The position numbers and the translations under genes are program-made. DNA of 64,000 nucleotides from Apostichopus japonicus. Its lineage: Eukaryota; Echinodermata; Holothuroidea; Aspidochirotida; Stichopodidae. How positions within the stretch are numbered: position 1 is the first letter of the stretch; the number at the start of each line of letters is the position of its first letter. Below, one piece after another: positions 5,030 to 61,939 of the stretch. The notes below the pieces were generated by a model. That model did no database searches. It was not told the DNA's origin and saw only the letters and a program-made list of their open reading frames with translations. Location: the NCBI RefSeq assembly GCF_037975245.1, contig NC_092572.1, positions 5,667,001 through 5,731,000 on the forward strand, read 5' to 3'.

Positions 5030-5735
5030 ACTTAGGGAGGTTTGGGAGCATCATTGGGTCTGGGAAGTGTTATTTCCGGCGATCTAGGAGGTATATATTT
5101 GCCCAAAAAATTCTTGTACGCTACGTGAGAACCCGTGGTCGCGCTCCACTTAGATAGTATCAGAGAACAGACAAGCGTCCCCACCATTATCCAAGACTGC
5201 ACTGCGCCCATGCACCAATAAATTAACCGACTGTCCCTGACCAACATTCTTACACATACCTTCCTCTACCTGTGCAATTTTGACCGGTCTGTTAGGGATT
5301 GAAGAAGGTTTTTTACTATATTGGTTGTCCATAGATGAAAATTTGTGCAACATTATGGGTATGTTTTGAAGTGAATTTATTTCACGAGAAATGTGAATTG
5401 TCAAATTCTGAACACATAATGGGCTTAAAACTTTAAAAAGTGGGGCTGACGGGTATTGTGGTCCGCGACGTAGAATCACCTACAAAAGCAATGACCCACA
5501 GGAGATGCGATGAGGTCGCACATGATGTGACTGGTGACAATCTTCTAAAAGGTTATGGATGAAAAACAATTATTTGGTTCTCGGGCAAAAGTGTAAATCT
5601 GGTTGGTCATTTTCAAGCCCGAGAAGTGCCATTTCCGGTGATCTGGGGGGTATCAAAACCAGAAATTTTCTTGTACGCTGCGCGCCAACCGATGGTGGCG
5701 CTCCGCTTAGATAGTAATTCGCGCCCCCCCCCCCG
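5030..5735 (-). mobile_element. Two fragments of the hAT-like non-autonomous family
   Basis: Segments at about 5040-5160 and 5610-5722 are diverged reverse-complement copies of the element seen at 29080-29190. All share a diagnostic stretch on the minus strand reading ATCTAAGCGGAGCGCCACC, followed by a GGTTGGCGCG-like core, a CAAGAAAATT stretch and a pyrimidine/purine block ending near a CCGGAAA...CACTTCCCGAG-like sequence. The 5610-5722 copy is nearly base for base the same; the 5040-5160 copy is more decayed. No intact ends were found here. A homopolymer of C follows at 5727-5735. Confidence 0.7.
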
Positions 5736-8469: not shown

Positions 8470-8880
8470 CTTAACAGAGAAAAATACGCCGATGTCGTTG
8501 TCGGTAACTCCGTCGCTTCAAAGATATTCTGTTTCCCTGGCTATCGTTTACATTTAAACATTCCTACTGTGACAAGTAATGTAAGCCTGTGGAGCAGGCA
8601 AATTGCCTGCTCCACAGGCTTACATTAATTGCCTGAGGCAATAATACAAATCATAACATAGGAGCCAGATTCTCTTCCACCTTAAACTTATTAACAAACA
8701 AAGATCCATTGAGAATGAACAAAATGCCACTCCGCAATATGGTATATGTAACATGTAATACTTAACAAATGTTACATTTGCATTTTCAATGTTTAATTGA
8801 CCCTTTATACTTATCCTAGTATCACAAACGAAACATCTAACCACAGCTGTCATCACAAAATATTCTCTACCTTTGAATCA
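8470..8880. repeat. Older triplicated segment, copy in A
   Basis: This segment recurs in copy B (53680-54060) and, more diverged, in an intron of gene A at 18630-18970. All three share a GCTTCAAAGAT stretch, a block containing TTCTACCTTttatTTACTAACAAA-like sequence, and a downstream block with an AGCTGT...TCACAAAATAT pattern. It is an intronic repeat or an older internal duplication. No coding potential is conserved among the copies. Confidence 0.65.
8577..8627. repeat. Perfect palindrome with 25-bp arms
   Basis: Arms at 8577-8601 and 8603-8627 are exact reverse complements around a single central base. The left arm starts TAATGTAAGCCTGTGGAGCA. Copy B (about 53773-53810) keeps only a diverged left arm, so the inverted arm is specific to copy A. 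Confidence 0.9.
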
Positions 8881-11299: not shown

Positions 11300-12295
11300 G
11301 CGAATATTTTTTCCCAAACTGAACTGACACTGATATAATATCCTAGATTCTGATTGGCTCTCAGCGAGCACGTGATATACTTTAATATTCAACATGGATC
11401 CCTCGATAATCTGTCGATATCAGTATGATATTCACATTAGCAATTTTCTAGAACTTTTGGTAGGTATATATGAACGAAAGTATATAGTGTTCTTAACACA
11501 ATGAAGCAACTATTCCCAACTACTGCGCCCATTATAGGCAGTCCTCGAACGTTTGTTTACTCGCTTGACTCCGCTCTACACAACACATGTGATGCAGCCT
11601 ATTGTACTGTGTATAGTATACAACACAATAAAACACAGTGCATTTGTAATTGCATACACATGTAGCCGATGTACATATGTACGAGTTGTTTGTGTACATT
11701 CGGAGTTGCGATACTTTTAGTTTTATCATCATTAATTCAAAATGTATTCAGTCATTGAATCATGGTAGGCCTAGTCGAATATGCAGTGGCCATGAAGACG
11801 GCGAGCGAGTGTGTGCCAGCCAGTGAGTGTATACAAAAAAAGGCATTTGACGATATGGCTGTGTCTTTTGACTTGTTAACTAGTTGTATATAGCCTTATA
11901 AACTATACGTACGGAAACACAAATGTTTGCCGGCACCATTAGACGTTCTTGTACATGGTGACCTAGTAGGCCTGCATTAACCGTATATACGTATTCGTAT
12001 TAGTTCGAGATCTCAAATTCACTATAGGCCCTACCGCCCTTACAGTAGCTCTCGATAACTGGAAAGCCTCACATTTTATCTACACGTATAGGCACACTTA
12101 GGCCTACAGACTTTAACTTAGCCTGTATAAGGCCTAAACACGTATTTTTGAAATGATGTGGCCCATGAGGATTGGTATGATCAACACTTACAGTGTCACA
12201 TACATTCATTGATAAACGCAGACTACCATTCCGGTTTTGATCAACCAATCAGAAATAATTTCAGTGTCAGTTCAGTTTGGGAAAAATATATTCGC
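11300..12295. mobile_element. Mutator-like (MULE) non-autonomous element
   Basis: A 996-bp insertion with long terminal inverted repeats: the left end begins GCGAATATTTTTTCCCAAAC, and the right end reads as its near-exact reverse complement for about 33 bp, with weaker similarity beyond. It is flanked by a perfect 9-bp direct repeat, TACCGGGCC (11291-11299 and 12296-12304). The paralogous site in copy B (57095-57103) has one TACCGGGCC and no insert, so this is a clean filled/empty pair. A 9-bp target duplication with long TIRs is typical of Mutator/MULE transposons. No transposase frame is present, so it is a MITE-type derivative moved in trans. Confidence 0.85.
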
Positions 12296-12923
12296 TACCG
12301 GGCCTACACACTCATCAACTCTACGAACGTACCAAAGTGTTATTACTGTACATTTTCAAAATGATGCATTATCAACAGCTTATGCATATCAATATACTAC
12401 TTTCACGTGTGATTCAACAGAGTTTCTCTCTCTGAGCGTGCACATGATTAGTCACTGCACCACGTATCAATGTATTGTTTAATATTGACTAACGTGTATG
12501 TGTGTTTTTTGTTTGCATTGGACATTATGAAAATATACCCGTGTGCTTGCGTAAATGAAGGATCAACTCAATTAACTGATTAATTATCTTTAGGTTCCTA
12601 ATTGTCAATATACCTAAACTTGACACTCTGTTTGGTATGTTAACTGTTCGTGTAAGTCTCTCTTCAATACACACTTCAAATGGAAGTTTATTCGACTGCT
12701 CTATCCAACAACACTGTTACCCTGTCGGGGTAGGTGGGACTTCTGCTGACAGTGTGGTCAACTATTAATGATAACGATGCAGATAATGATGATGATAAAG
12801 ATCAAGATCGTGATCGAGATCAATATCGAGATCATGTACATGATCATGATAATTGTCCACGACCCCGTCCCGGTCCCATCCCCGTCCCTGTCCCCGTCCC
12901 GGTATCCATATTCCAGTCCCCGT

Positions 12924-14025
12924 TGTTACGAGGGCCCATTGTAGCCTAACGCTAGTCACTGCTAGTGAGGAACCTAATGTTATAATATAGAAAGTATTTG
13001 AAATTGCCTACGTAACAAATCAATATTTGAGAAATTAGGTCGGGTTATCGTGTCAGAATGTTATAATACACGATTGTTCTAGTATATTCCTTATGATGAC
13101 GCGCTGGTCTCGTGTTAACGTCGGCTTACGTGAAATAGCGTGCAAGCTGTGCACGCATCTTCGTGGATTCTCTGGAATGTTCGCGAGATGTGCAAAGGAC
13201 TTCCGCGAATAGAGAAACCTGGTCGCGTTGTTACTCAGGTGTATCGAGAAAGATCTGGATGATTCTTGACATGACGAAGCGTATAAAAACCCGCCCGGAT
13301 TGAAGAGTTTCTCAGTTTCTGTACGAATACAAGCGTCGACACATACTATACCTTTCTACTATATATCGTCAGTGCTCAACTGCCAGTACTTTCTGAGGGA
13401 TTGCGATATCGATACCAAGATTGATTCTACACTTCCACTCAGAAGTTTGAAGAGGACTTTGCTGTGAAACTACAGTTTTCCAGTCGTTATTTCGGAGAAG
13501 GTGAAGAATTTCTGTCTCCGTTGAGGAAGTTCGTTACGCCAGGAGTTGGTAGCTATATAGCTGATTTTGGACTAACTCTGGTAATATTTAGTCGGAGAGA
13601 AGTTCGACTTGTGCTTCACTTGATTGTGGCTGGAAGTCCGTCTTCAATTTTGGAGCATCGCCGGAAAGAAGGTGACTGCTGTTTCTGGGATCGCGAGAAA
13701 CTTCGTCGAGGGCCAGTGAATTTCGCGGTACAACGGACCGAGAATCGTCGTCATCAAGGTAGCGTGGCCGCTGAGGGATATCGCCGTTGGAAGAGACCAG
13801 CGTGTTTTAAAGTGTATCCTACCTTGTTAAGTTTGTGAGTAATTTTCTATATATTTCTAATTACCACTTGTTGTTGTAAGTTCAAACTCCATTGTTCAAT
13901 ATAGTTTACGTTCTCATTCAAATTCTCTAGACTCTTCAATTTGTCTGTGTTCCTCTCAAAAACGAACCTAGGCTTGTGTCTCGTTTAAAATTAATTATCG
14001 AGACCTCTCGCATTCCAACGTAACA
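12924..14025 (+). mobile_element. Solo LTR of an LTR retrotransposon
   Basis: An 1102-bp insertion present in copy A and absent from copy B. It begins TGTTACG and ends CGTAACA, a 7-bp terminal inverted repeat of the TG...CA type, and is flanked by CCGT on each side (12920-12923 and 14026-14029), a likely 4-bp target duplication. A TATA box (TATAAAA, 13282-13288) inside a more GC-rich region suggests the U3/R boundary and a + strand orientation. No gag or pol follows, so this is a solo LTR left by recombination. The 124-codon open frame at 13464-13838 lies wholly inside it and resembles no known protein. Confidence 0.8.
13282..13288 (+). promoter_or_regulatory. TATA box of the solo LTR
   Basis: TATAAAA stands within the 1.1-kb LTR, with a GC-rich stretch just downstream. 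Its position in the first third of the LTR suits a U3 promoter. Activity is inferred only. Confidence 0.5.
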
Positions 14026-14029
14026 CCGT

Positions 14030-14460
14030 ATTAATTTCGTCGTCTTTATCATCGTCGTTGTCAGCGTCCTTGTCATCGTCGTCGTCATCGTCATCGATAT
14101 CGTCATTATCCTCCCCTTCCTCATATTCATCCTCCGCTTCCTCTTATTCATCCTTCTCCTTCTCTTCTTCCTCCTCATCCTCCTCATCCTCCCCATCCTC
14201 CTCAACCCCATCATCCTCCTCATCCTCCTCATCCTCCTCATCCCCCTCATCCTCCTTATCCTCCTCCTCCTCCTCCTCCTCCTCCTCCTCCTCCTCCTCC
14301 TCACCCTCCTCATACTCGTCATCCTCCTTCTAATTCTCTTCCTCCCCTCCTCTTCCTCAACCCCTCCTCGTTCTCGTCCTCCTCGCCGTCGTCATCGTCA
14401 TTGTCAATATCGTCGTCGTTGTCGTCGTCGTCGTCATCGACATCATAATCATCACCATGC
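14030..14460. repeat. TCC/TCG polypyrimidine low-complexity tract (copy A)
   Basis: About 430 bp of imperfect TCC, TCG and TCA triplets on the + strand, with an uninterrupted (TCC)n core near 14262-14304. The equivalent copy B tract is 61515-61860. Apparent poly-Ser or Arg-rich frames across it are artefacts of triplet composition. Just upstream (12770-12920) are GATC-rich and GTCCC-rich simple repeats, shared with 61390-61510. Confidence 0.85.
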
Positions 14461-14527
14461 GAAAGAGAGTGCGAAGGCGAAGGCTAAGGATAAGGCTAAT
14501 TAATAACCTCCATATTTAAACCTTCAG

Positions 14528-14602
14528 GTACCACTGCCTTACCTTATACAGCCAATGTAACAAATTCGTCCCCGTCTACCAATGAGCGTACAAGAACTAA
14601 GG
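14528..14602 (+). CDS. Receptor gene A: Thr/Ser-rich stalk exon
   Basis: A 75-nt phase 1-1 exon with acceptor CCTTCAG and donor GTATGT. It reads G-TTALPYTANVTNSSPSTNE-RTRTKG, with two adjacent N-glycosylation sequons (NVT, NSS), and has no predicted globular fold. The homologous exon in copy B is 61940-62014. In B a stalk exon follows Ig exons; here the stalk leads to a transmembrane exon at 19690. I infer that it is the membrane-proximal stalk of an Ig-type receptor. Upstream ectodomain exons of gene A were not found in the window. Confidence 0.65.
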
Positions 14603-15559
14603 GTATGTGGACTTACATTCACTTTTTGGCCAACTGTCCTTGCTAGGAAATAGTTTCTTAATAACGCTCAATTAAGTCTTTCTGTACTCGAAAACGGGGA
14701 ATTCAGAACTGATTCTTTGTTGAAATTTTATTAATGCCTCTTTGCATTTAAATTTCGAAAGCTAATTTATATTTACAGAATATCAAAGCAGGGTGTTTAA
14801 TTTAGTGGCCGCAGCATGTGTGTATGTTTAGTTTTAGATAGCATTGTAAGAACAAGCGCAAATTCTAAAAAATGTATAATGTTTTGGTTCGGTGTCATCA
14901 CGTCTCCAAGTTAGACATATCAAATACTATGAAATGTAAACACTATCATTCTGTATTATTATGAAACGTCTCCGCTTTGAACAAAATCTTATTACTTTTG
15001 TAAGGTGAGTTGTAGTACATCAAATGGCTTTAAGCAGCATTTTGAAACATGTATGAAAGAACCAAAGAATAGCATATATTCTCATCAGCTTTTCATTAAA
15101 ATTGGCGAAAATCACCTTAGCACTTTTATTTCAGGAAAGTCAACTCACTAATTGAACATTGTCAACGAGATCCAAGTCTTACTACACTCTTAAATATTCA
15201 TTTTACTACATGGCATTATATGTAAATCGTCTTCTGATGTACGAAACATCACCAACTTTTGTTACTATCAGCAAATCTTGTAAAATGAGTGCAAATAGAC
15301 ATGTACTTCTTTGTCTGGAGAGTTGACGTGTCATTCTTTATGTGGTGTTACTTTATCCTTGGATGTCAGCGATTTAGCCTTTCCGTTTCTTGCCCTGGGT
15401 ATTCTCCACGTATTTCATCATTTTCATTGTGGAGAAACATGTGCTATTTCGATATCTTTGTTTGCGTTGCATGTAGCTGGTTTCGTGGAACTGGTATACT
15501 TATAATTACGTTTTAATTATATTTTTGTATTAAAACTGCTCTCCCTTAGTGCAATGAAC

Positions 15560-16180
15560 TCTTACTTCTTCGTTGAAGTTTACAAGCTTTTACTTTTTGA
15601 ACTGGAATAGTTAATTTTACCCAAATAATGTACGTTTATGTGCTAGAGTCACTGTTGTGGGATGCAAGATCCCAACAACTGCTCTATTATTTTGTGACAT
15701 AAGAACTAGTTCGATAACTGTCCAACAAAGGCCTATCCGCCTTAAATTAAAGTTTGGTTCCCAATTACCGGTGGTGAAGTTGAGTTGAATCTCGGCACAT
15801 ATGTGTGTCACTCTGTCAGCTGTCAACGAAATATGAGAGGGAAGAGTGTAGCAGTTGGATGCTATATTTGTAATCAGTGGACTCATGTCAAATGTTCTAA
15901 AGTGTGCATTCAACAATACAGATGTCTTGCATTGCCTGATGATGATTTTAATACTTGATTGTGTGCAATATATTTTCTACTTTTTACATGTTGAATATAC
16001 TCACTTATTTCAAGAGGACCCAGTGTATATAATCCTGGTTATTCTATCACTAAGAAGTATCATGATCTTCATTGCACTAAAACGCCTACCTCTGATATTA
16101 CTGGTGCTTTTTCTAAGGTCGATACGTTGCAACCAACGTACTCATTTAAATCTTAGAATCTGAAAGGGAACCAATTTCTA
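15560..16180 (+). mobile_element. Decayed CR1-type LINE relic with 2A-like motif (copy A)
   Basis: At 15770-15796 the + strand reads GGEVELNLG, a decayed form of the 2A-like DVExNPGP motif known from CR1-clade non-LTR retrotransposons. It runs on in frame to 15958 through a Cys/His-rich stretch (CYICNQWTHVKCS) that looks like the PHD-type zinc finger of such elements. A LRILKGTNF-like stretch near 16142-16174 may be the start of the endonuclease. Frames are interrupted. The copy B counterpart keeps the motif better (62974-63000, GGDVELNPG) but has TGA in place of one finger cysteine. This is a fossil that predates the segmental duplication. Confidence 0.6.
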
Positions 16181-16189
16181 CGCGTAGCA

Positions 16190-16268
16190 CTGTGTCTGGC
16201 AGGGATCCCAATTAGAGGAAGTTGGTTTATATCTGGCAGGGATCCCAATTAGAGGAACTTGGTTTATG
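16190..16268. repeat. About 38-bp tandem duplication, copy A only
   Basis: The unit starting TCTGGCAGGGATCCCAATTA occurs twice in a row, with one mismatch near the end. Copy B (about 63388-63425) has a single unit, so the second unit arose in A. Confidence 0.85.
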
Positions 16269-17097
16269 CCGAGAATCCTATGGTGGATGTGGTAAAGATG
16301 GTTACAAAATAATACCTTTACCCTCCTCTACCCCTCTCAACTAAAACAAATTGAGGTAGATCATCCCAAAGGTAACCCCATGAGAACACCCTGTATTTAA
16401 TAACCACAATCTCAAGGGCTTGAAACAGGGATGCCAGATGTCTACAAGTATTTTTTTGTCTTAACAGAGTATTTGATGTACACGTTTTGAACAAATCTCT
16501 ACATTAGCGTTCAGAAAAAGCACCATAAATTTTTAACTATTAACGCGATTAAAATGACTATTTATAGCAATGTACATCTTTATGTTCGACGAGTTCGATA
16601 TGAGCAGTTTTACTTGCTTTAGCAAACGTGCTGTTTAGATCAAATCTGATTGTAGACTTACAGCAGTCTCAATTTTAAAATCAACTTCAGTATATATTCA
16701 CTTAATCACCACTATCTCTGAATTACCTGTTATATCTTATTTTAAGAAAGTCATTGAAATATTATGCCGACAAGTCGAAAATACTCCTTTGCTGTCTGCT
16801 ATTGTATGATAAGAAACAATATTGCATTTTTTAACTATGACAAACTATTGAACAGTTGAAAAAAACGTATGTTTGTATTTCTCAAATGTTATTATGCATA
16901 TAGGCTACATTTATCGCATTACATGTGACTCCAACGTTTTATGCTTCATTGACGTTTCGTTCAGTTTATGCTACTTTACAATACAAACGTGTCGTAATAA
17001 TATGTGCTGCTCAATGATTTAGCTGTCAGTTGTTATTTTTAACCCGACAAATCATCATCTACTATTTTTTCATACGTTTTAATTTCAATTTTTGCAG

Positions 17098-21026: not shown

Positions 21027-21509
21027 GTAGATTGTTTAATTAATAATGTTGACATTTTTTTCAAATATAAGATGGATATTTCACTAACAGTTTGGCAATT
21101 TGTTACAATGTTATTTTGTTTTGCTAAGGGACATAAAGGGTCTGGTCCAGTTTGAAAATTTAAGAGGAGGTGGGGTATGGGGTATGGGGAGGAGGATAAT
21201 ATTTACAATTAAATTGTTAAAAGAGAAATATATGCCGAGCCCCATCCCTGTTCCTCACCGATGACCAAAAACTTGAGAGTTTCTCAAGTAACTTATACCT
21301 GCACTTTGTATTGAATTCGCTACAAGGTGGTCTACCAAATAAACTCTACCAACAATAGGGACAATCGCGTAGCATATTTTGTATCGCGAATATATGGGTT
21401 ATATTTTCTATTTTTCTATTTTATTTCTTTGATATAATTCATATAACAAATTATGATGAATGTGGTCATGGCAAGCCTAATGAAAAGGTAACTGTTTCTA
21501 AAAAAAATT

Positions 21510-21860
21510 AATACACAAAAAGTCGTCCCCGTTTTCGCGTAGTGGCGAACGTGCACTTTTGGCGAAATTGAGTTAAATATTATTCTTACCTATTCGAGGG
21601 TGAAGAATCGGTTAAGCCGGGTTAGAAGTTTTAAAACTGTTTATTTTTTCGTTTTTTTCTGACTCATTTTTGACGAATGTCCACCTAAGACCCACTCTCG
21701 TTTTTACATACTGACGAATACTTTAGTAATCATTACAACCATTCAGTAACAATATTTGTCTAAGGTCCATGCATTTTTGCATATCGACGAATATGTCCCT
21801 TTGGAACAAGCCGAACATAACAACCATGTCATACTGACTTGAGAACCAACTGACTGCCAT
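21510..21860. repeat. Left arm of a diverged inverted repeat pair
   Basis: About 30 bp around 21523-21555 (GTCCCCGTTTTCGCGTAGTG...) matches the reverse complement of 25677-25708 with a handful of mismatches. Both arms are followed inward by several GACGAAT words. The arms enclose 3.8-4.2 kb and may be the ends of an old DNA transposon, but no transposase was recognised between them. Confidence 0.45.
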
Positions 21861-21940
21861 TTGAAAACACCCAGGATTATGGGAAGGTAATATCTGTATT
21901 AGTTCATCTCGTCATTTAATTGATTAATACAGTATTCATA

Positions 21941-22582
21941 TACTACGGAAGCGTAGAAAGGACATGGTGATGAAAGAGAAACAAACTCGTCAAAATGACA
22001 AAATTCAGAAAAATGACGTTTTGCCGAGTTTAACAACTCGTCAAAACGACAAAATTATTTAATTTGCCGAGATGCAACAAGTCGTCAAAATGACAAAATT
22101 CTGAAAATTGACGTTTTGCCGAGATACAATAACTCATCAAAATGACAAAATTCTGAAAATTGACGTTTTGCCGAGATACAACAAGTCGTCAAAATGACAA
22201 AAATTTGAATCTCAACGTTTTGCCGAGATACAACAAGTCATCAAAGTGACAAAATTTTGAAAATTGACGTTTTGCCGAGATACAACAAGTCGTCAAAATG
22301 ACAAAAAATTGAATCTCAACGTTTTGCCGAGATACAACAAGTCGTCAAAATGACAAAAATCTGAAAATTGACGTTATTGCCGAGATACAACAAGTCGTCA
22401 AAACGACAAAATTCTGAAAATTGACGTTTTGCCTAGATACAAAAACTCATCAAAATGACAAAAACCTGAAAGTTGTCGTTTTGACGATTTTTATCTCGGC
22501 AAAACGTCAATTTTCAAAATGTTGTCATTTTGTTGAGTTTGTTACTCTTTCATCACCATGTCCCTTCTACGCTTCCGTAATA
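21941..22582. mobile_element. MITE with long TIRs built around a minisatellite
   Basis: The ends are inverted repeats (left start TACTACGGAAGCGTAGAAAG; the right end at 22582 is the reverse complement with few mismatches, extending at least 40 bp) flanked by TA, compatible with a Tc1/mariner-type TA duplication. The interior (about 21985-22520) is a tandem array of roughly nine units of 50-60 bp. Each contains CGTCAAAATGACAAAA..., TTGACGTTTTGCCGAGAT and ACAACAAGT, and a last unit is inverted. It encodes no protein. Confidence 0.75.
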
Positions 22583-23117
22583 TACGATAGCATAACTCGT
22601 GAAAACAGAATGAGGTGTGGGTCAACAATAGCCTAGTGTTAGGATTGCAGAACATTCTATGCTTGTATCTGTTGCTATAGTAGCTATAGAGGGTAGACTG
22701 GAGTAACGCTATTTATCTCTACTGAATCGGTGTAACAGTGTGACTGTCGGTACATTTAATTAGAGCTGTTTACGTGTAAATGAGGAAACAGGTGGTGTGA
22801 GTCACTGACGGACATTGATGACAATGGGTGTAACTCGTATAAAAATGATGAATAAATCACTCAAATTTTAATTGTGACCGCGAAGACTACAATACCTAGA
22901 CCAATGTTAATTAATTTAAGCCATTCTTAGAGTTAGCCTAACCATACCTAAGGATTAAAGGGAAGGAATCCCAAACCATCATAATGAACTTATATCACCA
23001 AGATCCTTGTGATGAACTTATCCCTAAAAAGTCCATTTTCTTGCACGGTACGGGAGTAAATTGGTTTTAAAAGTCGTGGCATGGACCAACTTTTTGCCAA
23101 TGTGTAATGTCACAGTG

Positions 23118-23148
23118 CCACTTGGGATGGTTGGGGGGGGGGGGGGGC
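23118..23148. repeat. G homopolymer tract
   Basis: A run of about 16 G preceded by GGTTGG. Length is unreliable in any assembly. Confidence 0.9.
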
Positions 23149-23589
23149 GATATAATGTAATATTTTGGTGTCCTGTCACCTTTTCAATGTGAATGTAAAC
23201 AGTTCAATAAACAAATACCAGTTTTATGACAAATTAAAACATGCAAACGCCAGCTCATTTCCATTTAAGACTTCCTCCAGTCTTCAATTTCATATATAAA
23301 TAAACGTTAAAAATGTAACATCTCCTTAAAGAAGTACGGTTTCTCTTAGCTGTTGGCGGCTTTGCTCATCACGAGCATTACTCTAGCCTAACTTAAAACT
23401 ACCTTTTTCTAGCTAAGTAATACCTAGTTACATAATTGAAGGTCACATACTTTTACATGAAACTTTGGAAGGTACTAGCATAGTTTATACTTGAGTACCG
23501 TAGTTACTTTGCTACACAGGACGAGGAGGGGAGGAGGGTGGGCGTTTGGACCGAATTACTAGAAAATCTGTATAGCAACCTTTAATACT

Positions 23590-24030
23590 GTCTTGCCAAA
23601 TCAATTAATGAAGGATCTTTTACGATTTATCGAAGAAACATCGCTTATTCATTGGCTGACACAAATTCTTCAAGGATGGTCCAGACAAGTAAGGTTGGAT
23701 AATGGGTTATCGGAAATATTGGAAATAAAGGTTGGTGTGTCTTGGGGTGGGAGGAGGGGGTCCATTATATGGTATATTATTTACTATATATACTGATGAA
23801 ATTAGGTCAAACTCACAAATTTATATAACAAAATATGCCGTATCATTTAGAATATTTAGAATACAATATACTTTTAGAAAAGGTAAATGCTGCTGCAAGA
23901 CCTGAGTTTACAAGAATGGCTAATAGGATTGACAGTGATCAGAATAACCCTCTGTATACTGTACTAAAAACTCTCCTGCACAAATCGAGCAGAAATCTAA
24001 GAAATCCACACAAAATACCGAACGTAAGTT
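23590..24030 (+). other. Unrecognised open stretches
   Basis: Two neighbouring open stretches: 23593-23740 (LPNQLMKDLLRFIEETSLIH... followed by a GTTGGT possible donor) and about 23835-24025 (ending RNLRNPHKIPN with a possible donor GTAAGT at 24025). Composition looks protein-like (amphipathic, charged), but I recognise no family and saw no clear acceptors. They could be unidentified exons of gene A between the juxtamembrane and kinase exons, or remains of a transposon bounded by the 21.5/25.7 kb inverted repeats. Confidence 0.25.
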
Positions 24031-24297
24031 TACAACAACTCATTTATTTACCGTGCTGCTTTATACATTCCATTCGAGCACTTAGAATGTTTGTTATAGT
24101 CTGTTTGTTATATCGTTTTATGTAATAACTTTTGTATTAGTAGATGTATTTCATATGATATCCTATCATCTTGACATTTTCTCCCTTTTTACATTAGCTA
24201 TTCTTGGACTGTTTGCTATCCTATCATCTTAAAAAAAACAACTTTTATATGAGTTATTCTTCTTGTTGAGGTGTTATATGACTCCTCTCTATAAATT

Positions 24298-24575
24298 TTA
24301 TATGTATACTGGAAGGAAATAAAAAGAAGGAACAAGATACCGCAGTACAACTTGGAAACACTTGAACAATGACACAGTTATTTCCTTCTTTAAATCTGAG
24401 GATTCACACGAGGTTGGGTTGGATATTATGAATGTGCCTGTGAGCGTAAGAATTTTTTTATATGTATACTGGAAGGAAAAAAAAGAAGGAACAACATACT
24501 ATTGTACAACTTGGAAACACTTGAACAATGGCACAGTTGTTGGGTTGGATATTATGAATGTGCCTGTGAGCGTAA
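24298..24575. repeat. Direct duplication of about 115-150 bp
   Basis: 24300-24446 and 24459-24573 share TATATGTATACTGGAAGGAA, an AACTTGGAAACACTTGAACA stretch and TTGGGTTGGATATTATGAAT. The second copy lacks about 35 bp in the middle. No function is evident. Confidence 0.85.
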
Positions 24576-24804
24576 TACAATTTCACATTCCGTTTAAGGG
24601 GATAGTATAGTGGAATAGCTTCCCAAAGCGTTTGAAGGATACTTAGAAACTATTGTCAGAGACATTTCACGTAATACACTAACTTGAAAATGAAGAATTG
24701 CACACAATTTTCCGTAGTCTGTGTGCTTTATAAGAGTTCCGACTTAACAGATTACGCCACTGGAACTATTATTTTTGCAACTGCATGTGTTCACATTTCA
24801 TCAT

Positions 24805-25275
24805 ATACCTTGTCTATTTTATACATTATAGAAAATGGTGGGGGTTCTTTAAAATAAATAGGACCAATATATAACCCTTTCTGCAGCCGGCTCTCCTTGC
24901 CCTCCCTACCTCAACATCTCTTTATCCGACACCCTACATTTCACCCAAGAAACACATACTAAAACACTTACATCCGCCCATAACCCATACAGATTCCTTG
25001 TCTATTTTATACATTGCAACTTAACGTGGGCGTTCTTTTTAAATTAATAAGACCAATATAACACCATTTTAACAGCCGGCTCTCCTTGCCCTATACACCA
25101 CCTACCCTCGTCATATCCGACTCCATCCATGCCACTCAAGCAAAACATACTAAAACACGTATGTTGATACCTGCGTATAACCCATTCCTTGTCTATTTTA
25201 TACATTCAAGTAAACCGTGGACATTCTTTTTAAAATTAATAAGACCAATGTACCACCCCTTCGATTATTTTCTTC
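24805..25275. repeat. Three tandem units of about 185 bp
   Basis: Units begin near 24808, 24995 and 25187 with CCTTGTCTATTTTATACATT, followed by a TTCTTTWAAA...GACCAATATA block. The first two continue through GCCGGCTCTCCTTGCCCT. The third is truncated. No coding role is evident. Confidence 0.8.
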
Positions 25276-25319
25276 TATCTTAAGGTTATTCCACCTAACC
25301 ACCCCCCCTTCCTCTCCCC

Positions 25320-25735
25320 ATGTGACAGTGAACATTCACGGTGTACCCTATGGCTACTACACACAAAAGTGACGAATACAAGTCTGTGACAGGACGAAAC
25401 TTCAAAATTTAGTTCTAGCATAGTGACGAATGTGTGGCGAATGTCTAAAATTAACTGAAAATGACTTGACATAACGACGAATATGTTTACACTAAAATTA
25501 CTACTATGTAAGAATTTTTTCGATCAGCAACAAACATGAGAACTCAAAGTTCTATTTGTTATATTTAAAATATTGACAACTTTCGGTAAAAAAGATCCTC
25601 TTTTAGTTACGCTATACTCAAGTCAAAATATGAAAATCTTTAGAACACGTTTTCTCAAAACTCACATTTTGAACATTCGTCACTACGCCAGAACGGGGAC
25701 AAAGTGTTCACATTTTTTTTAAAACTTTTTTATTT
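25320..25735. repeat. Right arm of the diverged inverted repeat pair
   Basis: Reverse-complement counterpart of 21510-21860 (core at 25677-25708), with the same GACGAAT-type words in the inner part. Confidence 0.4.
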
Positions 25736-26480
25736 TTTTATTTATTAAACATCATTTTCTATTCAATTTTGTCTGCCATATGAGTATTTGACCTAACGAC
25801 CTGTACGATAGGGCAAGTAGAACAGCCACTTCAATTGATGAGCCGAAGATGTGCAAAGTTTGAATTCTTAAAAAATTAAAAGTACATCAAATATAACACA
25901 GACTGGCAGCAGTGTTCCTTAACAATAAACAAGATTTTGAATTTAATTTCCCACTTATCATCTGCCACCGAAATATCTCCTAACGGAAGCATACACTTTC
26001 ATCGCTGAAATTGTATATTTTTTCGCAGATAGACGCATTGATGTGAAAGTAAATCTCTCAAGAAAAATTCTTCATGTCATCAAAAATGGCTTTAAGATCA
26101 AACAATGGGGAGACCAAATATTGAAACACTATGAAGTATGCACCTAGTAATGTAGCAGAGTATTCACTTTTGAAAGTGTTCAATAGCTTTTCCACTTAAC
26201 TATCTGCTTCTAGAGGTTGCTTGATAAGCACAAAACAAGCCTGCCAATCATCTTATGACAATATTGGGTTCTCTATGTTGATAACAAAATCCATAGCACG
26301 GTTTTCAATATTCACTAAATTGGAGATTGGGAATAAGTGGTATCTAGCTATGTATTATGTTACCAAACACCATCAGTGTGACCAAATCACGACACGACTG
26401 GCAGTTGTATGCAATATGTATTATTCTTAAAGTTAAAGTTAGTTATGATATCACACCAAGTCACGCTTCCGTCTTTATAG

Positions 26481-26660
26481 CTTACATGGATCTGCAGGAA
26501 CTTGAAGTTAATAAGAATAAGAAGAACAAGAATCTTGAAGTCCCAGAGACGAATGTGAAATTAGTTTCAAATTTACCTGGAAAAGGAATGTTACGATATC
26601 ACAAGGCTTTGGTTATGAGAGCAGAAGGGAATCTAGAAGCTGTGGTCAGAACTTTGTCAG
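26481..26660 (+). CDS. Receptor gene A: kinase-like exon 1 (N-lobe start)
   Basis: A 180-nt phase 1-1 exon, acceptor GTCTTTATAG, donor GTATTT. It begins AYMDLQELEVNKN, a juxtamembrane-like stretch with a tyrosine, then a Lys-rich linker, and from about residue 33 the start of a tyrosine-kinase N-lobe: LPGKGMLRYHKALV replaces the glycine-rich loop and EAVVRTLS replaces VAVKTLK. The glycine loop is degenerate and the ATP-anchoring lysine of strand beta-3 aligns with Arg, so ATP binding is likely poor. The kinase assignment rests on this pattern together with the following exons. The start codon is upstream in an earlier exon. Confidence 0.75.
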
Positions 26661-26943
26661 GTATTTACTTTGAATATTACCTTAGCAGACTAAAAGAAAG
26701 TAACATCTTCAATACATATTGTTTTACAATGACATATATAAAACATAACGCGTGTGAATGCAGTATGATATTGTAAGGAGAATGACTTGTGTTAACCCCG
26801 TCGACAATTTCATCGAATGTTATGTGATTAAAAGAGATAAAACAAACATTTGAAAACTCAACTCGTCCTAATCAAAGTGTACAGTGGATGAGACAGTGAT
26901 AACCTCAATGCGTTTAACAATCTACTAACTGATTGCTTAACAG

Positions 26944-27051
26944 GTGATTCAACTTTGCGGATGAATAAATTACAAAGTTCAGAGGTTCAACACATATTAA
27001 AACTGCCCGGTGATAATAGTATTATGAAGCTTCTTGTATGGTGTGATACAG
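26944..27051 (+). CDS. Receptor gene A: kinase-like exon 2 (helix C region)
   Basis: A 108-nt phase 1-1 exon, acceptor GCTTAACAG, donor GTACGA. It reads GDSTLRMNKLQSSEVQHILK then LPGDNSIMKLLVWCDT. The second part aligns with the tyrosine-kinase pattern L..H.NI(V/M)KLLGWC at strands beta-4/beta-5. Glu of SSEVQH is a plausible helix-C glutamate. The frame is intact. Confidence 0.75.
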
Positions 27052-27335
27052 GTACGAATACTCGCACTTGTCAAAATGTGGTATTAACCATTCAACCTTA
27101 ACAGTGCAGGCCTTTTTCTTGGCATATATGTTGTGCTCTAAGGAAATACTAAAATATATACAAATAATGACAAATGAGAGAACAAGAAAAATATATGATT
27201 AAAACTTGAATTCAATAAGGTCATTTTGTTTGTTCTTGTAAATAAACTACTAATCACTGATTTGCATTCGAATAACTTTATATGGTTACTACTTTTCAGT
27301 ACCAAAAAATCTGATTTGTGAATATTAAAGCGGAG

Positions 27336-27502
27336 GAACTCTCTCAGATCACCTAACTGAAGAGTTCAGTTCCCAGAAAGTACATCAGTATGGCAATACT
27401 AAACAGAAGCGTTTTCAAGTTGCGGAGAAGGGAAACGCCGATCATTTACCAAAATATGCACTTCAGGTGGCGAGAGGATTAAAGTGTTTGACAACACATA
27501 GA
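27336..27502 (+). CDS. Receptor gene A: kinase-like exon 3
   Basis: A 167-nt exon, phase 1 in and phase 0 out, acceptor GCGGAG, donor GTAAGT. It starts GTLSDHL, the hinge and helix-D motif of tyrosine kinases (G-T-L-x-x-x-L), has a variable Lys/Gln-rich insert, then YALQVARGLKCLTTHR, matching helix E (A.QVARGM.YL...). The frame is intact. Using the AG just before GAACTC rather than an upstream AG is forced by phase and by the GTL motif. Confidence 0.8.
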
Positions 27503-28072
27503 GTAAGTTTATTCCACTCCAGTGTATTTTCTCCTTATAGTGGGAGGATATGTAAATCAACACATGTGGGAAATGTTAAATATGGATACGAAAATGGCAC
27601 CAATGATATCAAATAGCCTTGGTCAAATCAACATCAGAAGAAGACTGATGATGCTTTACTTGTATGTGCGGCACAGCAAAACAGTGTGGCTAAGTTTATT
27701 AAAAGGGGTTAAGAACATGGACTGCCGTTAACGTTTATTTTTTAATTGTGCAGTCTTAATATTTATGATATGATCTCAGTTGTGACTGCTTAGGCACTAT
27801 GATCCAAAAGATATGTACAATGGTTCATAAACAAGAACTAAGAGGAGAATAATAATGAAAAGATAATAAATACTTCCAAGCAACATATTGTCCAAAGGTG
27901 GAGGAGTAGTTTCTCCTGTAAATAATTACACTTCAGCAAACAACAAAAACATTGGGCCCAGGTATCAAAAGTTAAGGCTTTTTAAGGAAGTGCTATATCA
28001 TTGATTCTCTTAGATTTCGATATAGTGCTTAATTACTTTACTAACTAACAATTGCTTAAACTGTATTAACAG

Positions 28073-28192
28073 TTCATCAGCCCCGGTCTTCGAAGTAAGA
28101 AAGTCTTGTTGACAGCGTCAGGGAAGTGCAAGTTATACAACTTTGTTTCTGTATAAAAGGCTAAAGAATGGACTGAATTAACTTGGAATGAA
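28073..28192 (+). CDS. Receptor gene A: catalytic-loop exon, catalytic residues lost
   Basis: Acceptor TATTAACAG. It reads FISPGLRSKKVLLTASGKC then KLYNFVSV. Aligned to (I/V)VHRDLAARNVLL...KIADFGLA this gives His-Arg-Asp to Ser-Pro-Gly, the loop Asn to Lys, and Asp-Phe-Gly to Asn-Phe-Val, so proton acceptor and metal-binding residues are all absent. The next in-frame codon after NFVSV is TAA (28154-28156). Beyond it the same frame reads KAKEWTELTWNE to 28192. Joined to the next exon, that gives an activation segment of normal length, so I favour a longer exon with a nonsense codon. The alternative is splicing at 28151 (GTATAA), which avoids the stop but leaves an activation segment of only about eight residues. 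Confidence 0.7.
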
Positions 28193-28362
28193 GTCAGTAT
28201 TTGCTCAAAAGTGTTGTTTCCAATTTAGCTTAGAAATAAACTTTAATTAATTATATTTACAGGGATATTTATGTCCCCAATAGCTAATAAAACCTCCTAT
28301 ATTGTTCCATAAATACAGGGGATTTCATTCAAAGTACCGGATAATGAATATATACATATGTA

Positions 28363-28370
<8 letters not shown>

Positions 28371-28437
<67 letters not shown>
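28371..28437. repeat. (TA)n microsatellite
   Basis: About 33 TA units after a short TGTG stretch, directly upstream of the kinase exon acceptor at 28459. The acceptor tract is only about 20 bp from the repeat. Confidence 0.98.
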
Positions 28438-28443
<6 letters not shown>

Positions 28444-28459
28444 CATTTCTTTCGCACAG

Positions 28460-28568
28460 AATGTTCCCTTTCAGTGGATGCCTCCAGAGTTTCTCTTACA
28501 TGAAACGATTTCTGCCGCAGGAGATGTCTGGTCATTTGGTGTTCTCCTCTGGGAAATTTTCAGTTACG
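28460..28568 (+). CDS. Receptor gene A: kinase C-lobe exon
   Basis: A 109-nt exon, phase 0 in and phase 1 out, acceptor TTTCGCACAG, donor GTATTG. It reads NVPFQWMPPEFLLHETISAA then GDVWSFGVLLWEIFSYG. This is the best-preserved part of the kinase fold: WMPPE stands for the APE motif, and DVWSFGVLLWEIFSYG is the helix-F signature of tyrosine kinases, including the conserved Asp. It places the domain in the tyrosine-kinase group. Confidence 0.93.
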
Positions 28569-28841
28569 GTATTGGAATTTAAATTATATAACTGGATATT
28601 GTAGATCATATGCGATTGAATCCTTTACTTTCTAAGTAGCTTGATTTCGTATTATTGCATGATAGGCCAATGGTGTTTTTGTATGGCATTGTAATTTAAC
28701 ATCAATGAAAAGGCGCAAATAATTTATTCTTTTCTATGCGTTGTAAATATATATTAAGCAAATAAAATTCCTTTTGGGAAATGGAAAAAGAAGACACTTT
28801 CTTTATTTCTATGGGGTATCCAATTCTTTACCGCTGTGTAG

Positions 28842-28935
28842 GATCGGAACCGTACCAAGGAAAAGCCAGAGCTGATGTCGAGAAGAGCCTTCGCGCAAAA
28901 CAGCAGCTCCTTCCTGATAACTGCCCAGGGGTCAT
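28842..28935 (+). CDS. Receptor gene A: kinase C-lobe exon 2
   Basis: A 94-nt exon, phase 1 in and phase 2 out, acceptor CCGCTGTGTAG, donor GTAAGC. It reads GSEPYQGKARADVEKSLRAK then QQLLPDNCPGV, matching the helix-G region G..PY.......V...L..G.RL..P..CP. The frame is intact. The next exon must supply one base, which the exon start at 29033 does. Confidence 0.85.
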
Positions 28936-29032
28936 GTAAGCAAGCCTTTTTGTATTTCCTGTACCAGTCTTTCTCTTATCACCCTTTCCATGTTTTTCAT
29001 ATATACATTGGCTCCGTTTGTTCTCATTTCAG

Positions 29033-29040
29033 CTGGCAGG
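29033..29040 (+). pseudogene. Receptor gene A: first 8 nt of an exon split by a transposon
   Basis: The acceptor TTCTCATTTCAG is followed by CTGGCAGG, and then the hAT-like element begins. Joining these 8 nt to 30132 restores (AT)C-TGG-CAG-GTG-ATG, read IWQVMITCW, the expected kinase motif (I-Y-x-V-M-x-x-C-W) in the right phase. As it stands, reading through from 29033 enters the element and meets TAA after about 14 codons, so the kinase would be truncated before its last helices. Confidence 0.85.
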
Positions 29041-30123
29041 CAGGCGCGGCGGAACGGAAAAATTATTGGGGGGGCTAATGTGTGGAGACTATCTAAGCGG
29101 AGCGCCACCATCGGTTGGCGCGGAGCGTACAAGAAAATTTTGGGTTTTTTCAAACCCCCAGATGGCCGGAAACGGCACTTCCCGAGTGTTTTATGCTTCG
29201 AATACCTAGCCCTAAAATATGGGTCTCAAGCCTGCAATTTCTCTGATTGCACGTAAAAGTCTGTAAAAACATTGTTATTTGTATATCCGATGGTGGTTTA
29301 AGAGATTAGCTATTACTCGTAGTGTACTCGCAAAGACGTTTTTGAGTGTAGTAAGGACAGTGGCGGAGCTAGGGGTATTGGTCGGGGGAGGGGGGCAAGA
29401 ATGGTCTGTAGGGGCACTTTCGACACTATCTAAGCGGAGCGCCACCACAGGTTGGCGCGGAGCCTACAGAATTTTTTTGAGTAAAGATACTCCCTAGATT
29501 GCAGGAAATGACCCTCTCCGGGCCTTGCTAATTTGCAGATAAACGGAGAATAAATAGGTGTCGTCGCCATTTTGTCGGAAAATTACACCAACAGAATATG
29601 ACAAATGTCAATAGATAGATGAGAGCGCAATAAAATAGTCAATAATCGCGAATAAGTAAAAAGTAGTGAAAAGCTGAAAAGGGCGCCAGCAGTCTATTTG
29701 AGTCCGTCAGGGGGGTGGCATCCGCCCCTGACTGTATGGACGCTTCGCCACTGAGTAAGGGGATGTTGGAGAACTGGCTGAAATGAGGCAAGTCATTGGC
29801 CTAAGACGAAGTTGTGTTGAGCTTACCGGTACTCACACTCACTGCTTCCACTTTTCACGGGGCGTGAAGAAGCGGTTGGGGTGACAATGTGGTCTATAGC
29901 CAGGGGACGGCCGAGGGTCCCCCAGCATTTACTAAAATTATTACACCTGTATAGTATACGTGTGCATCGGACAGATCGACAAGTATACTGCATTGAAAAA
30001 TGGGCAGATGCACGTTTAGGAGCCTTGGTAAATATTGGGGGGGCTTATCATGCATTTGCCCCCTCAACTTTTTTATTGGGGGGGCTGAGCCCCCCCAAGC
30101 CCCCCCCGGTTCCGCCGCCACTG
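29041..30123. mobile_element. hAT-like non-autonomous element inserted in a kinase exon
   Basis: The ends are inverted repeats: left CAGGCGCGGCGGAACGG, right end the reverse complement of CAGTGGCGGCGGAACCGG. It is flanked by an exact 8-bp duplication, CTGGCAGG (29033-29040 and 30124-30131). An 8-bp duplication with CAG-type ends suits the hAT superfamily. G-rich runs sit just inside both ends. It has no transposase and contains a second, related element (29358-29753). Removing both and one target copy restores the kinase reading frame, so the precise boundaries are well supported. Confidence 0.85.
29358..29753. mobile_element. Nested hAT-like element
   Basis: Begins CAGTGGCGGAGC and ends with the reverse complement of CAGTGGCGAAGCG. 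Flanks are AGTAAGGA (29350-29357) and AGTAAGGG (29754-29761), an 8-bp duplication with one mismatch. It carries its own copy of the ATCTAAGCGGAGCGCCACC block (about 29430-29448), as does the host element at 29089-29107, so a relative jumped into a relative. Confidence 0.8.
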
Positions 30124-30224
30124 CTGGCAGGTGATGATAACTTGTTGGGAAGCGGCTGCAGAAAAAAAGACCTAAAATTGATGACGTATCATTTAAGCTG
30201 GCTGCCTTGTGCAATGAGGATAAG
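30124..30224 (+). pseudogene. Receptor gene A: last kinase exon, displaced and frameshifted
   Basis: The remainder of the exon split at 29040, after the 8-bp target duplication. From 30131 it reads VMITCWEAAAEK. A run of seven A (30162-30168) then shifts the frame: with six A it would continue RPKIDDVSFKLAALCNEDK to the donor GTAAGA at 30225. CW...RP is the closing signature of tyrosine kinases (helix H/I), so the shift is a real break or a homopolymer error. As written the frame ends at TAA four codons later. Confidence 0.75.
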
Positions 30225-30452
30225 GTAAGAACAACAAAGGAATAAAAAGTTATATTAACATATTTTGCTTCATCCAAGGATTGCTTGTAATACGATTGAG
30301 TTGTAACCCACCTTTCGAGAGTTAAACAAAGGTTTGTTATCAGGGTGATATTTATTCTGCAAATCATAGATAATCCTTGATATTTTAACTTCCTTAATAA
30401 CCAATGTGGATCAGTAATTCAACTACATCGATTTTTTAACTTTTTGTCAAAG

Positions 30453-30473
30453 GAATATCAGGAAATCGTATAA
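30453..30473 (+). CDS. Receptor gene A: possible C-terminal exon
   Basis: Acceptor TTTTGTCAAAG. In the phase expected from 30224 it reads EYQEIV and stops (TAA 30471-30473), giving a tail that ends just after the kinase-like domain with one tyrosine in a YQEI setting. A different frame of the same DNA is open for about 36 codons (NIRKSYKKTFLDGS...) up to a (TA)n tract. I prefer the short tail on phase grounds, with low certainty. Confidence 0.35.
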   Translation, partial: EYQEIV

Positions 30474-30560
30474 GAAGACCTTTCTAGACGGAAGCATTAA
30501 TCGCCGACTATCAAAATCGATGAGTATGGAAAAATTAGTTGACGGAAGAACTACCGAAAG

Positions 30561-30562
<2 letters not shown>

Positions 30563-30599
<37 letters not shown>

Positions 30600-42517: not shown

Positions 42518-43401
42518 GTACGTTTGTTATTTTATGAGTGAAATTATTTTATAATGGTCACAATCAATATTTCATATACCTTTCCAACGCTAGCAGTGTA
42601 ACAAATATATGCTAAGCTGATATTCAGTCTCATGGATGAATGAATGAACGAAATAATGAATGGATGGGTGGATAGATAAGCAGAATGCTTAAACAAAATA
42701 TTGATATTTATGACGAACACAGACAAAAATCCCAAAAATGTGCATAAGAGGTCTATGCTTTAAAGTTAATGGAATTAAAGTAATAGTGTATCTAGATCAA
42801 CTTAACCTGTTATATTTTATTACAAAATGCTGAGTTGCTGATATATCTACTAGTGCACTTTTTTTTTAAAGCTCTGAATTCAGCATTTGCATGAGATCAG
42901 GTATCGGTGTATGGGAAGGGGTTTTATTATGAGTTGCTCATTATGCTCTCTCAAATCCGCCTACGTTAATTTGAATTGTAAAGGTTTAATTACTACAATG
43001 TTATACATGATGACTCCGACGAAACAAATTCATAAGAATGTTACAACGGGCGACATCAAAGAAATGCTATGTAAATGGTTTCAAATAGTGCAACAATTAG
43101 ATGAGTAATAAAATGTTGGAATGTAGATTATTCTGTTAATATTAAAGTTATCTATATTTGCCATAAATCAAGATTGTACAATGTTAAAAGATCCTTACTT
43201 TATGTAAATATTTTTACATGGTCTCATCAACATGATGAATAGGAATCCCAACCCAACTCAAAATGCAGCTTAACATATGGGTTCGTTAACATTTCCCCTA
43301 TAATAGTTTCTTTAAGTGAGGAGAGGAAGCAATTTTAAACATGGATATTAAACAAGGATCTTGATTGAGAGCACTTGGTTAACTTTTGAATTCATTGTTA
43401 G

Positions 43402-43719
43402 GTGCATCATGTCAGACTTTGGTGACCTACAGCTCTAAGTCATCTGAAGAGTTGCTATGTCCAATTACTGATCACACAATTGCTGCTACATGGAGGGATG
43501 AAACCACTGGGAATAACTTAGCAAACTATGTGAGAGGAGGACAACCTGACATTGAAATTGTAGATCCAGGTTCCAAACATAATAACTACATGTATTATGT
43601 TAGTTCTACATCATTCAGTATATTTATCCAGCCTGTTCAAGCAGAGGATGGAGGTGATTATATATGTTCTATTGTTGGAGGAGGAGGTTTCAGAAATGAG
43701 TACACTGTTGTAGTAGAAG
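43402..43719 (+). CDS. Receptor gene B: Ig V-like domain exon 1
   Basis: A 318-nt phase 1-1 exon, acceptor ATTGTTAG, donor GTAAGT. It encodes one Ig-like domain: ELLCPI (B-strand Cys), TWRDE (C-strand Trp), then SFSIFIQPVQAEDGGDYICS, the F-strand D-x-G-x-Y-x-C signature, ending YTVVVE (G strand). An extra Cys stands near the start (GASC). Extracellular, probably the membrane-distal ligand-facing domain. The Ig fold is clear; the ligand is unknown. Confidence 0.9.
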
Positions 43720-44019
43720 GTAAGTTTCTCACTTTCTGCAATATAAGCCGCATCATTTCAGAGGTTTATAAAGTAAATACGTTAATTTTGAAACATATTG
43801 CTTACCAAAATGTGTAATTGTCTAAACAACTGCACGCTTTTAAGCATTTTTAATACAAAGTTGTTGCATGTTTGGGATCAGCTTGTTTCAATGAGATATA
43901 AAAAATATATAAAGACCAGATAAACCTTTTTTGATATTAACATCAGTTGCAGAATTGTGAACTGTTATCACACTGAATTGTGATTTTAGAACCCTTTACC
44001 TTGATACTGCAGTTTCTTT

Positions 44020-46618
44020 AGTAAGTTTATACTATTTAACAATCTATTGGAACTATTGTTTCTGACATAAGTGACCATTTTCCAGTATATTCCATTTTAC
44101 ATACTCATTGAAGCCCAATCTCAGATCAGGCCTTGAACGATGATAGATATTATTTCAGAAGAGATACCTCTTTAAATGCTATGAATGACTTTGACATGAA
44201 ACTTGAAATGGTAAACTGGGATTTCTTGTATAATTTTACTGATGTGAATATTGCTTATAATACGTTTATTGATGTTATTTCCTCTTTATATAGCAGTACT
44301 TGTAAGTTAAAGCGAATTAGAGTTAAAGCTAGACATAGACCGCCGATAACAAAAAGCATTACAAATTATATCAAAACAATAGGAAACTATATATAGCATA
44401 TATTTTTAAGCCCACACAGGTAAAAACAAACTAGATATACTATTTACAGAAACAAACACACTAGTGTTATTAGGGCTGCTAAAAAGTATTATTTTGCTGG
44501 AGTATTCGGAAAAAATAATAAAAATAATTTTCATAAAACTTGGCAAATAATAAATAACAGTATTGGTTTAAATAAGAAAAATACCATGAATTTTATTTTT
44601 AATAATAAGAACAAAGTTTTTACTGATCATAGGGAAATTGCTAATGCTTCCAATGATTATTTTATTACAACATGGTCCAAACGTAGCAAAGATAATACCC
44701 GATTGCTCTTCTAAAATCGATGACTATCTTCCTCAAAATACTAACTTATATTCCTTATTTCTTTCACCAAAAATCCTTTTGAAATAATAAGCATTACAAA
44801 CAAATTACTAAAGAATTCTGCTCCTGAAATTGATGATTTCCCAACTAAAATTATTCAAAATAATAGTTACAAAATTACTGCCCCTCACATATTATTAATT
44901 TATCACTTTCTTCTGGTATTGTGCCTGACCAAACCAAACTTGCAAGAGTGACTCCTATTTTCAAATCAGATGATCTATCCGCATTCAACAATTACCGTCT
45001 CATTTCAGTTCTGTCATCTGTATCTAAAATTTTTGAAAGGATTATTTACACTAGAACTATTCATTTTCTCAATAAGCAAAATATCATTAGAGATCGTCAG
45101 TTCGGTTTTCGTCAAAAGTATTGGACATATATGGCAGCGTTAGATATCTCCAATTTTATTTCAAAAGGTTTTGTTAACAATGAATATACCCTAGGCATTT
45201 TCTTAGATTTATCCAAAGCATTTGATACTGTCGATCATAACATACTCTAAAGTAAGCTTTCTCACTATGGTATACGAGGTGTTGCCCATGAGTGGTTTCG
45301 ATATTATTTATCCAACCGTAAACAACTTGTAATGTTAATGATTGCTCATCTTTACTTAGAGATATTTCTCGTGGTGTGCCCCAGAACTCTATACTTGGAC
45401 CTTTGTTATTTATTTTATATATAAATGATCTTCCATTATTTTCTAAGAAATTGTCTTTTTCTCTTTTTGCCGATGACACCAGTACTCTTTTCTCTATCTC
45501 CTTAATCAATCATGAACGCACGCACGTTTCTGACTGGTTTAAATCAAATTGTCCCTTAATGCTAAAAGACACACGTCATGTTATTTTATCAACTTCGCAA
45601 CAAGTTTAAAAGTCTCAAAATATGCATCGACGACACCTTTGTTACACTCATTCTGACTCATTCTGTCAAATTCCTTGGACTTAATCTTGACCCTCAACTT
45701 AACTGGAAACTTCATATTTATTCAGTATGCAACAAAACGGCAAATATTATAGGAGTCCTTGATAAAAAAAATAAGTCATTTTGTACCCAAAAAATGTTCT
45801 CATTACGCTTTACCATTTTCTTATCTACTCGCACATATCTTATTGTAACATTGTATGGGGTAATACTCATCCCACTTACCTTAATCGCTTGTTTATTCTT
45901 CAGAAAAAAAAATTCGTATAATCACACTGTCAGACTATAGAGCTCACACTTCGCACAGGTCTCTTTAAAGATTTAAAGATTCTCACCTTGTCTGACATTC
46001 ATAGATTTCAACTAGGTATTTTCATGTATAAAGTTAACAATAACCTTCTGCCCTCCCTGCTATGCAGACACTTAAGCTTAAACTCAGACATCCATGGCCA
46101 TTTTACAAGACATTCGAGTCATTTTACATTTGTATAGTATCCGCTCTAACATTCAATGAAAATCTTTCATTTTCTCAGGTACCCAATTATGGAATTATCT
46201 TGATAACACGGTTAAAAATGTCCCATCACTTGCAATCTTTTCTAAAAATCAGAAGCATTTACTTTTATCCAATTACTGAACAGTTTAAGATGGCTAAGAT
46301 AATACATATTTTTAGTTTTTTTTCTTTTAATTTTTTTAATTTTTATAACTTATATAATATTTCTTTAAATTGTATAATGTTAGCTTATGTAACGTAAGTA
46401 CAGTTACATGGTTTATTTGTGTGTGCAACCTTTGTTTTATTGCATGCATTGTTAATTGTTTTTTCTTTTCTTATTGTCTTTGTACGGGGGTCTGCTTCGT
46501 AAGAGCCTCGGCTTTCTCAGACCTCCTCCACTTGTCACATACATTTTCTTCTATTATTGTGTTATATATTTTGAATGTTGAAACAAATAAATAAATGAAA
46601 TGGAATGAAATGAAAATG
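44020..46618 (+). mobile_element. 5'-truncated, decayed non-LTR retrotransposon (LINE)
   Basis: It starts within the endonuclease (SDISDHFPV, the C-terminal SDHxP motif, about 44062-44090). Then come a linker (44133-44396), reverse transcriptase motifs NNYRLISVLSSVSKIFERI and QFGFR (44970-45115), motif A FLDLSKAFDTVDH (45200-45240), motif B PQNSILGPLLFILYINDLP (Gly to Asn) and motif C FADD (45378-45480), followed by a C-terminal part and a 3' UTR ending in AATAAATAAATGAAATGG repeats near 46583-46618. Stops and frameshifts break it (for example the stop after HNIL at 45248). The motif order suits the jockey/CR1 group. It lies in the intron between two Ig exons of gene B, in sense orientation. 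Confidence 0.9.
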
Positions 46619-61870: not shown

Positions 61871-61939
61871 AAGAGAATGCGAAGGCTAAAGCTAAAGCTA
61901 AGGATAAGGCTAATTGATTACCTCCATTGAAACCTGCAG

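Follow-up and report, generated by a model that had tools for sequence, protein, structure and literature searches.

Two questions are raised by exon E7 of a kinase-like gene in the holothurian Apostichopus japonicus, whose sequence is split by a 1083-bp insert: what the insert is and how it arrived, and what its arrival meant for the gene. The locus lies within a 64,000-nucleotide stretch (C12:5667001-5731000, here the window) of a genome of 671.6 Mb in 35 contigs. The two parts of E7 lie at 29033-29040 and 30132-30224, so that the exon with its insert covers 29033..30224 on the + strand.

The insert occupies 29041..30123 (+), and its ends, its flanking duplication and its family copies identify it as the composite form of a non-autonomous hAT element. 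Its terminal inverted repeats, CAGGCGCGGCGGAAC on the left (29041..29055, +) and CAGTGGCGGCGGAAC on the right (30109..30123, read on the - strand), begin CA(G) and match at 13 of 15 positions. Immediately outside them stands the 8-bp target-site duplication CTGGCAGG, exact on both flanks, with the left copy (29033..29040, +) forming the first bases of E7 and the right copy at 30124..30131 (+). When the window was scanned for inverted ends accompanied by 8-bp flanking repeats, with 10 composition shuffles as the control, the element ranked first of eight hits, compared with 12/15 and 7/8 for the best shuffled result. An exact 8-bp duplication around a 1083-bp element with inverted ends had been claimed in the earlier note, and the observation of insertion, ends and duplication is confirmed to the base.

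The empty site is preserved in paralogs of the gene. The alignment covered seven paralogous loci from the window's contig (L010-L013 and L015-L017), more distant kinase matches being left out, and the exon is uninterrupted in every one. The insertion point reads CTGGCAGG, once, in six of the seven, and CTGGCAGT in L016. Because the paralogs show an unbroken exon with a single target copy, the insertion is exact. These unbroken exons, and the near-identical copies elsewhere that share the ends of the element, uphold the claim of a transposon insertion. The absence of the element from all seven paralogs fits an insertion that would have occurred later than the gene duplications.

A genome search with the element, in which the best 40 of 3731 first-look candidates were scored (window included), returned at least 39 further matches that are 93-98% identical, a count that is a lower bound. 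Among these 39, 35 span positions 1-1083, and the remaining four cover 1-1079, 2-1083, 3-1083 and 43-1083. The family ends thus coincide with 29041 and 30123, the point at which the earlier note had said that its reading could fail. Thirty of the 40 scored copies, those cut out as loci and including the window copy, were read. At the expected, unshifted ends the 8-bp duplication matches at 8/8 positions in 28 of them, at 7/8 in one and at 6/8 in one. The duplication sequence is identical within the pairs L037/L042 and L038/L040, and therefore the copies are not all independent insertions. An exact left end CAGGCGCGGCGGAAC is present in 24/30 copies and an exact right end CAGTGGCGGCGGAAC in 28/30; since the usual ends are kept across copies, the two-position mismatch between left and right is a trait of the family and not decay at the window locus. 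The 30 copies fall into two groups, one of 14 and one of 16 that includes the window copy; this copy is 0.8% away from the column majority and carries five private changes.

A genome profile search gave at least 150 matches to the hAT dimerisation domain, the best scored of 633 candidates, and four loci with long transposase frames were fetched (L060, L061, L062 and L063). L061, on C17, carries an end of the 1083-bp element and both of its terminal blocks; the ends were not found in L060, L062 or L063 within the stretch fetched for each. Two transposase-bearing elements with the same ends lie at C17:6832476-6837994 (5519 bp) and C17:7007863-7013383 (5521 bp). Their identity over 5521 aligned bases is 99.96%, and each is flanked by its own 8-bp duplication, ATCGGATA and AGGCTGTA; two near-identical copies with different, intact duplications point to recent movement. 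The terminal blocks, each 92% identical to the 5.5-kb element, comprise element positions 1-314 on the left (29041..29354, +) and 845-1083 on the right (29885..30123, +). Between them, the 5.5-kb elements hold a 796-aa transposase frame with Pfam matches to DUF4371 (5.1e-19) and, over its cut-off, to Dimer_Tnp_hAT (PF05699, 4e-08). Its best match among solved structures is the Hermes transposase, which is weak (E 0.012), and Pfam gave no match to a BED finger in the frame at E 0.01.

With both termini as in the transposase-bearing copy and the transposase missing, the 1083-bp element has the structure of a non-autonomous derivative. Its hAT membership, previously drawn from ends and duplication length, was tested here and is borne out by 8-bp duplications, inverted ends and a relative that has the same ends and a hAT dimerisation domain. 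The genome-wide search that had been proposed for a family and an autonomous partner found the family and the two 5.5-kb transposase-bearing relatives. Given the 8% difference at the termini, these elements are relatives of the source and not the source as such; the enzyme for the 1083-bp family could still come from them. Another long hAT frame, of 804 aa, is present in four copies with identical scores (C1:1198075, C7:9747129 in L060, C7:9836554 and C7:9878765), and perhaps represents a second recently active hAT family.

Within the insert lies a related inner element of 396 bp (29358..29753, +), flanked by AGTAAGGA on the left (29350..29357, +) and AGTAAGGG on the right (29754..29761, +). 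In the window scan it reached 11/15 at its ends and 7/8 at its flanks, no better than the shuffles and below two other hits; because this score alone is at shuffle level, the reality of the inner element rests on the family copies. All 30 copies read have its left junction, where the AGTAAGG-type flanks differ by one base in some copies, and 29 of the 30 have its right junction. As these copies were picked as the best hits of a query that includes the inner element, they show sharing and not the frequency of the composite. The outer junction without the inner element, bearing a single AGTAAGG, was found at 241 places with up to three mismatches, compared with none for a reversed control, and the 100 places listed have zero mismatches; all 241 are known as a 30-base junction and not as whole elements.

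Insertion of the inner element at the window locus itself is ruled out, since it is common to 30/30 copies and the inner-less junction exists elsewhere. The nested relative described in the earlier note is accordingly present with its 8-bp AGTAAGG-type flanks, but the nesting is older than the insertion in the window. Homology of the outer element to the 5.5-kb relative breaks off within AGTAA, the five bases that open the inner duplication, which suggests that the site where the inner element landed adjoins or spans an older junction. For the approximately 123 bp that separate the right terminal block from the inner element, the 5.5-kb element offers no convincing match.

A block of approximately 100 bp, starting near CTAAGCGGAGCGCCACC, recurs in the outer element (29085-29184), the inner element (29422-29523), the 5.5-kb elements, two fragments in the window (5062-5161 and 5617-5715 (-)) and L063. 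It may be a subterminal region at which the transposases of several hAT families bind. A search with one exact pattern for it gave no match in viral or prokaryote contig collections, and its single-strand fold is modest (z -1.72, with 13 of 200 shuffles equally good).

The host gene was read on the + strand from exon E2 (26897..27051), whose boundary is our own reading and whose true start may lie a few bases earlier, through E3 (27300..27502), E4 (28073..28192), E5 (28460..28568) and E6 (28842..28935) to the split E7. When the window exons E5-E7 are joined, their matches are to receptor tyrosine kinases; for the paralog L056, the joined exons match Pfam PF07714 at 2.7e-47 over profile positions 49-256 of 258. 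Three separate kinase pieces from the window exons gave no kinase match, one of these queries being in the wrong frame. Aligned with FGFR3, L056 has SPG at the HRD position and DFV at the DFG position. An alternative reading of the catalytic loop as HRF is ruled out, as the alignment sets SPG at HRD. In the window, E4 with its changed catalytic loop and DFG motif reads SPGLRSKK...NFV and then a stop. The description of a kinase exon therefore stands as regards the tyrosine kinase fold, but the HRD and DFG motifs are changed in the family, which thus lacks the standard catalytic motifs of an active tyrosine kinase.

Several further lesions accompany the insert. In-frame TAA codons occur in E3 (27326-27328) and E4 (28154-28156), both absent from the four paralogs compared, and E6 has a 3-nt deletion relative to 7/7 paralogs aligned. 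In E7, one extra A in a run of seven (30162-30168) causes a +1 frameshift relative to all seven paralogs; by itself it could be a sequencing error. Removal of the element and one target copy does give ...CPGV|IWQVMITCWEAAAEK, as had been claimed, but the frame then shifts in the A7 run and a stop follows two codons on. Without the insert, translation of E7 gives the 17 residues IWQVMITCWEAAAEKKT, the final two already lying out of frame, before a stop; reading into the insert, a stop follows IWQAGAAERKNYWGG. An intact exon after removal of the insert is excluded by the A7 frameshift and the early stop, and a rescue splice from 28935 to an acceptor at 30131 by three stop codons at once. The host copy is, on this sequence evidence, a pseudogene with several disabling changes besides the insert, and in view of these other lesions the insertion cannot be read as the knock-out of a working kinase. 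In sum, the structural reading given in the earlier note is supported as accurate, with corrections to the age of the nesting, the host motifs and the other lesions.

Pairwise dN/dS among four close paralogs (L056-L059) is 0.20-0.27 over 672 aligned bases. The window copy has 0.42 against L056 and 0.24-0.27 against L059, L057 and L058; as these values are mostly no higher than those among the paralogs, dN/dS does not establish that constraint on the window copy is relaxed. As a separate observation, L058 (C12:5925501-5935500) has CAA before E4, in contrast to CAG in the window and the other paralogs, and this copy may also be impaired through loss of that splice acceptor. The gene is also a mosaic when compared over window positions 21416-30565. 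From 21416 to 27661 the window is 94-96% like L058; from 27.7 to 30.6 kb, with the element excluded, it is 68-75% like L058 and 78-88% like L056 and L059; beyond 30.6 kb this contrast is absent. Such a pattern points to exchange between copies, by gene conversion or unequal crossing-over.

Cut-and-paste movement of a non-autonomous hAT element into E7 of a duplicated kinase-like gene is very probably the explanation of the locus. Misplacement of the element, or of the extra A, from another copy during assembly might be suspected in a repetitive family and at an error-prone homopolymer; the perfect flanking duplication of a sequence found once at the unbroken site of the paralogs, together with five changes in the insert that are not common to the other 29 copies read, makes such an artefact highly improbable. 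The element could also be read as a new intron that leaves the exon unchanged: with a GC donor (29040) and an AG acceptor (30130) both taken from the duplicated CAG|G, splicing would yield exactly the coding sequence of the empty site. Introners, described in PMC9860276, are transposons whose splice sites come from their target duplications. For the present element, the same reading depends on a GC donor, which is non-canonical, and on a micro-exon of 7 nt, in a gene copy that has other stops, and it is to be given very little credence. If it were true and general for the family, this would be a hAT element that generates introns in an animal-like genome.

A more serious alternative accepts the insertion and reverses the order of decay, with the element killing a working gene in which the stops and the frameshift came later. 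The constraint apparent among the four paralogs fits this view, and the window values of 0.24-0.27 against three of them would fit recent loss, with 0.42 against L056; the order of the lesions is not directly visible. What counts against it is time: an insert only 0.8% from the majority leaves little in which less than 1 kb of coding sequence could have gained a frameshift, a 3-nt deletion and two nonsense changes. An insert of that age implies about five substitutions since insertion in the 672 aligned coding bases, among which two nonsense changes would be unusual, so that earlier decay is favoured and a killing insertion is unlikely.

The preferred reading, insertion into a copy already in decay, can be put as a sequence of events. 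The inner element would have entered the outer element once, and the composite would then have used its outer ends to multiply. The family was probably moved in trans by the hAT transposase that the 5.5-kb elements, or a close relative, supply. One composite would have been inserted by cut-and-paste into E7 of one gene copy, duplicating 8 bp of target, when that copy was presumably decaying already. The insertion mechanism is a textbook one, and no new mechanism was seen.

Elsewhere in the window, a large direct duplication with blocks 81-92% identical joins 8477-16837 and 53673-64000, and may belong to the unit in which the gene family is repeated. A Myb/SANT-like frame (58189-58935, +) adjoins a DDE_Tnp_4 transposase frame (59501-60202, -), which we take to be the usual pair of a Harbinger-type transposon. 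A reverse transcriptase fragment (RVT_1, 44867-45250, +) probably derives from a LINE-like element, and an Ig-like exon (43383-43817, +; V-set 1.2e-4, below the curated cut-off) perhaps belongs to a neighbouring receptor gene.

Among known systems, the element resembles non-autonomous, MITE-like deletion derivatives of hAT transposons in its many copies, its missing transposase and the termini it has in common with a transposase-bearing relative. A typical MITE is shorter than about 1.1 kb, whereas this element reaches that length partly by carrying a second element. With the hAT superfamily (hobo/Ac/Tam3) the family has in common varied 8-bp duplications, short ends starting CAG and a frame with a hAT dimerisation domain. 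It departs from that superfamily in the two positions at which left and right ends differ; the Pfam search of the 796-aa frame gave no BED finger. Members of the superfamily are characterized, in the review PMC2874221, by 8-bp duplications, inverted repeats of 5-27 bp and lengths of 2.5-5 kb, which the transposase-bearing copies at 5.5 kb slightly exceed. Like Introners, the element is a DNA transposon in an exon with CAG|G in its target duplication; unlike them, it sits in a host copy with other disabling changes, and splicing of the insert is improbable. The host, for its part, belongs to a duplicated kinase-like family with changed catalytic motifs, a dN/dS of 0.20-0.27 among four members and one member in decay. 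Ultimately, a hAT family is resolved here within one genome, through a composite with its passenger, an inner-less form of the junction, an unbroken site in paralogs and transposase-bearing copies whose near-identity and intact duplications suggest recent activity.
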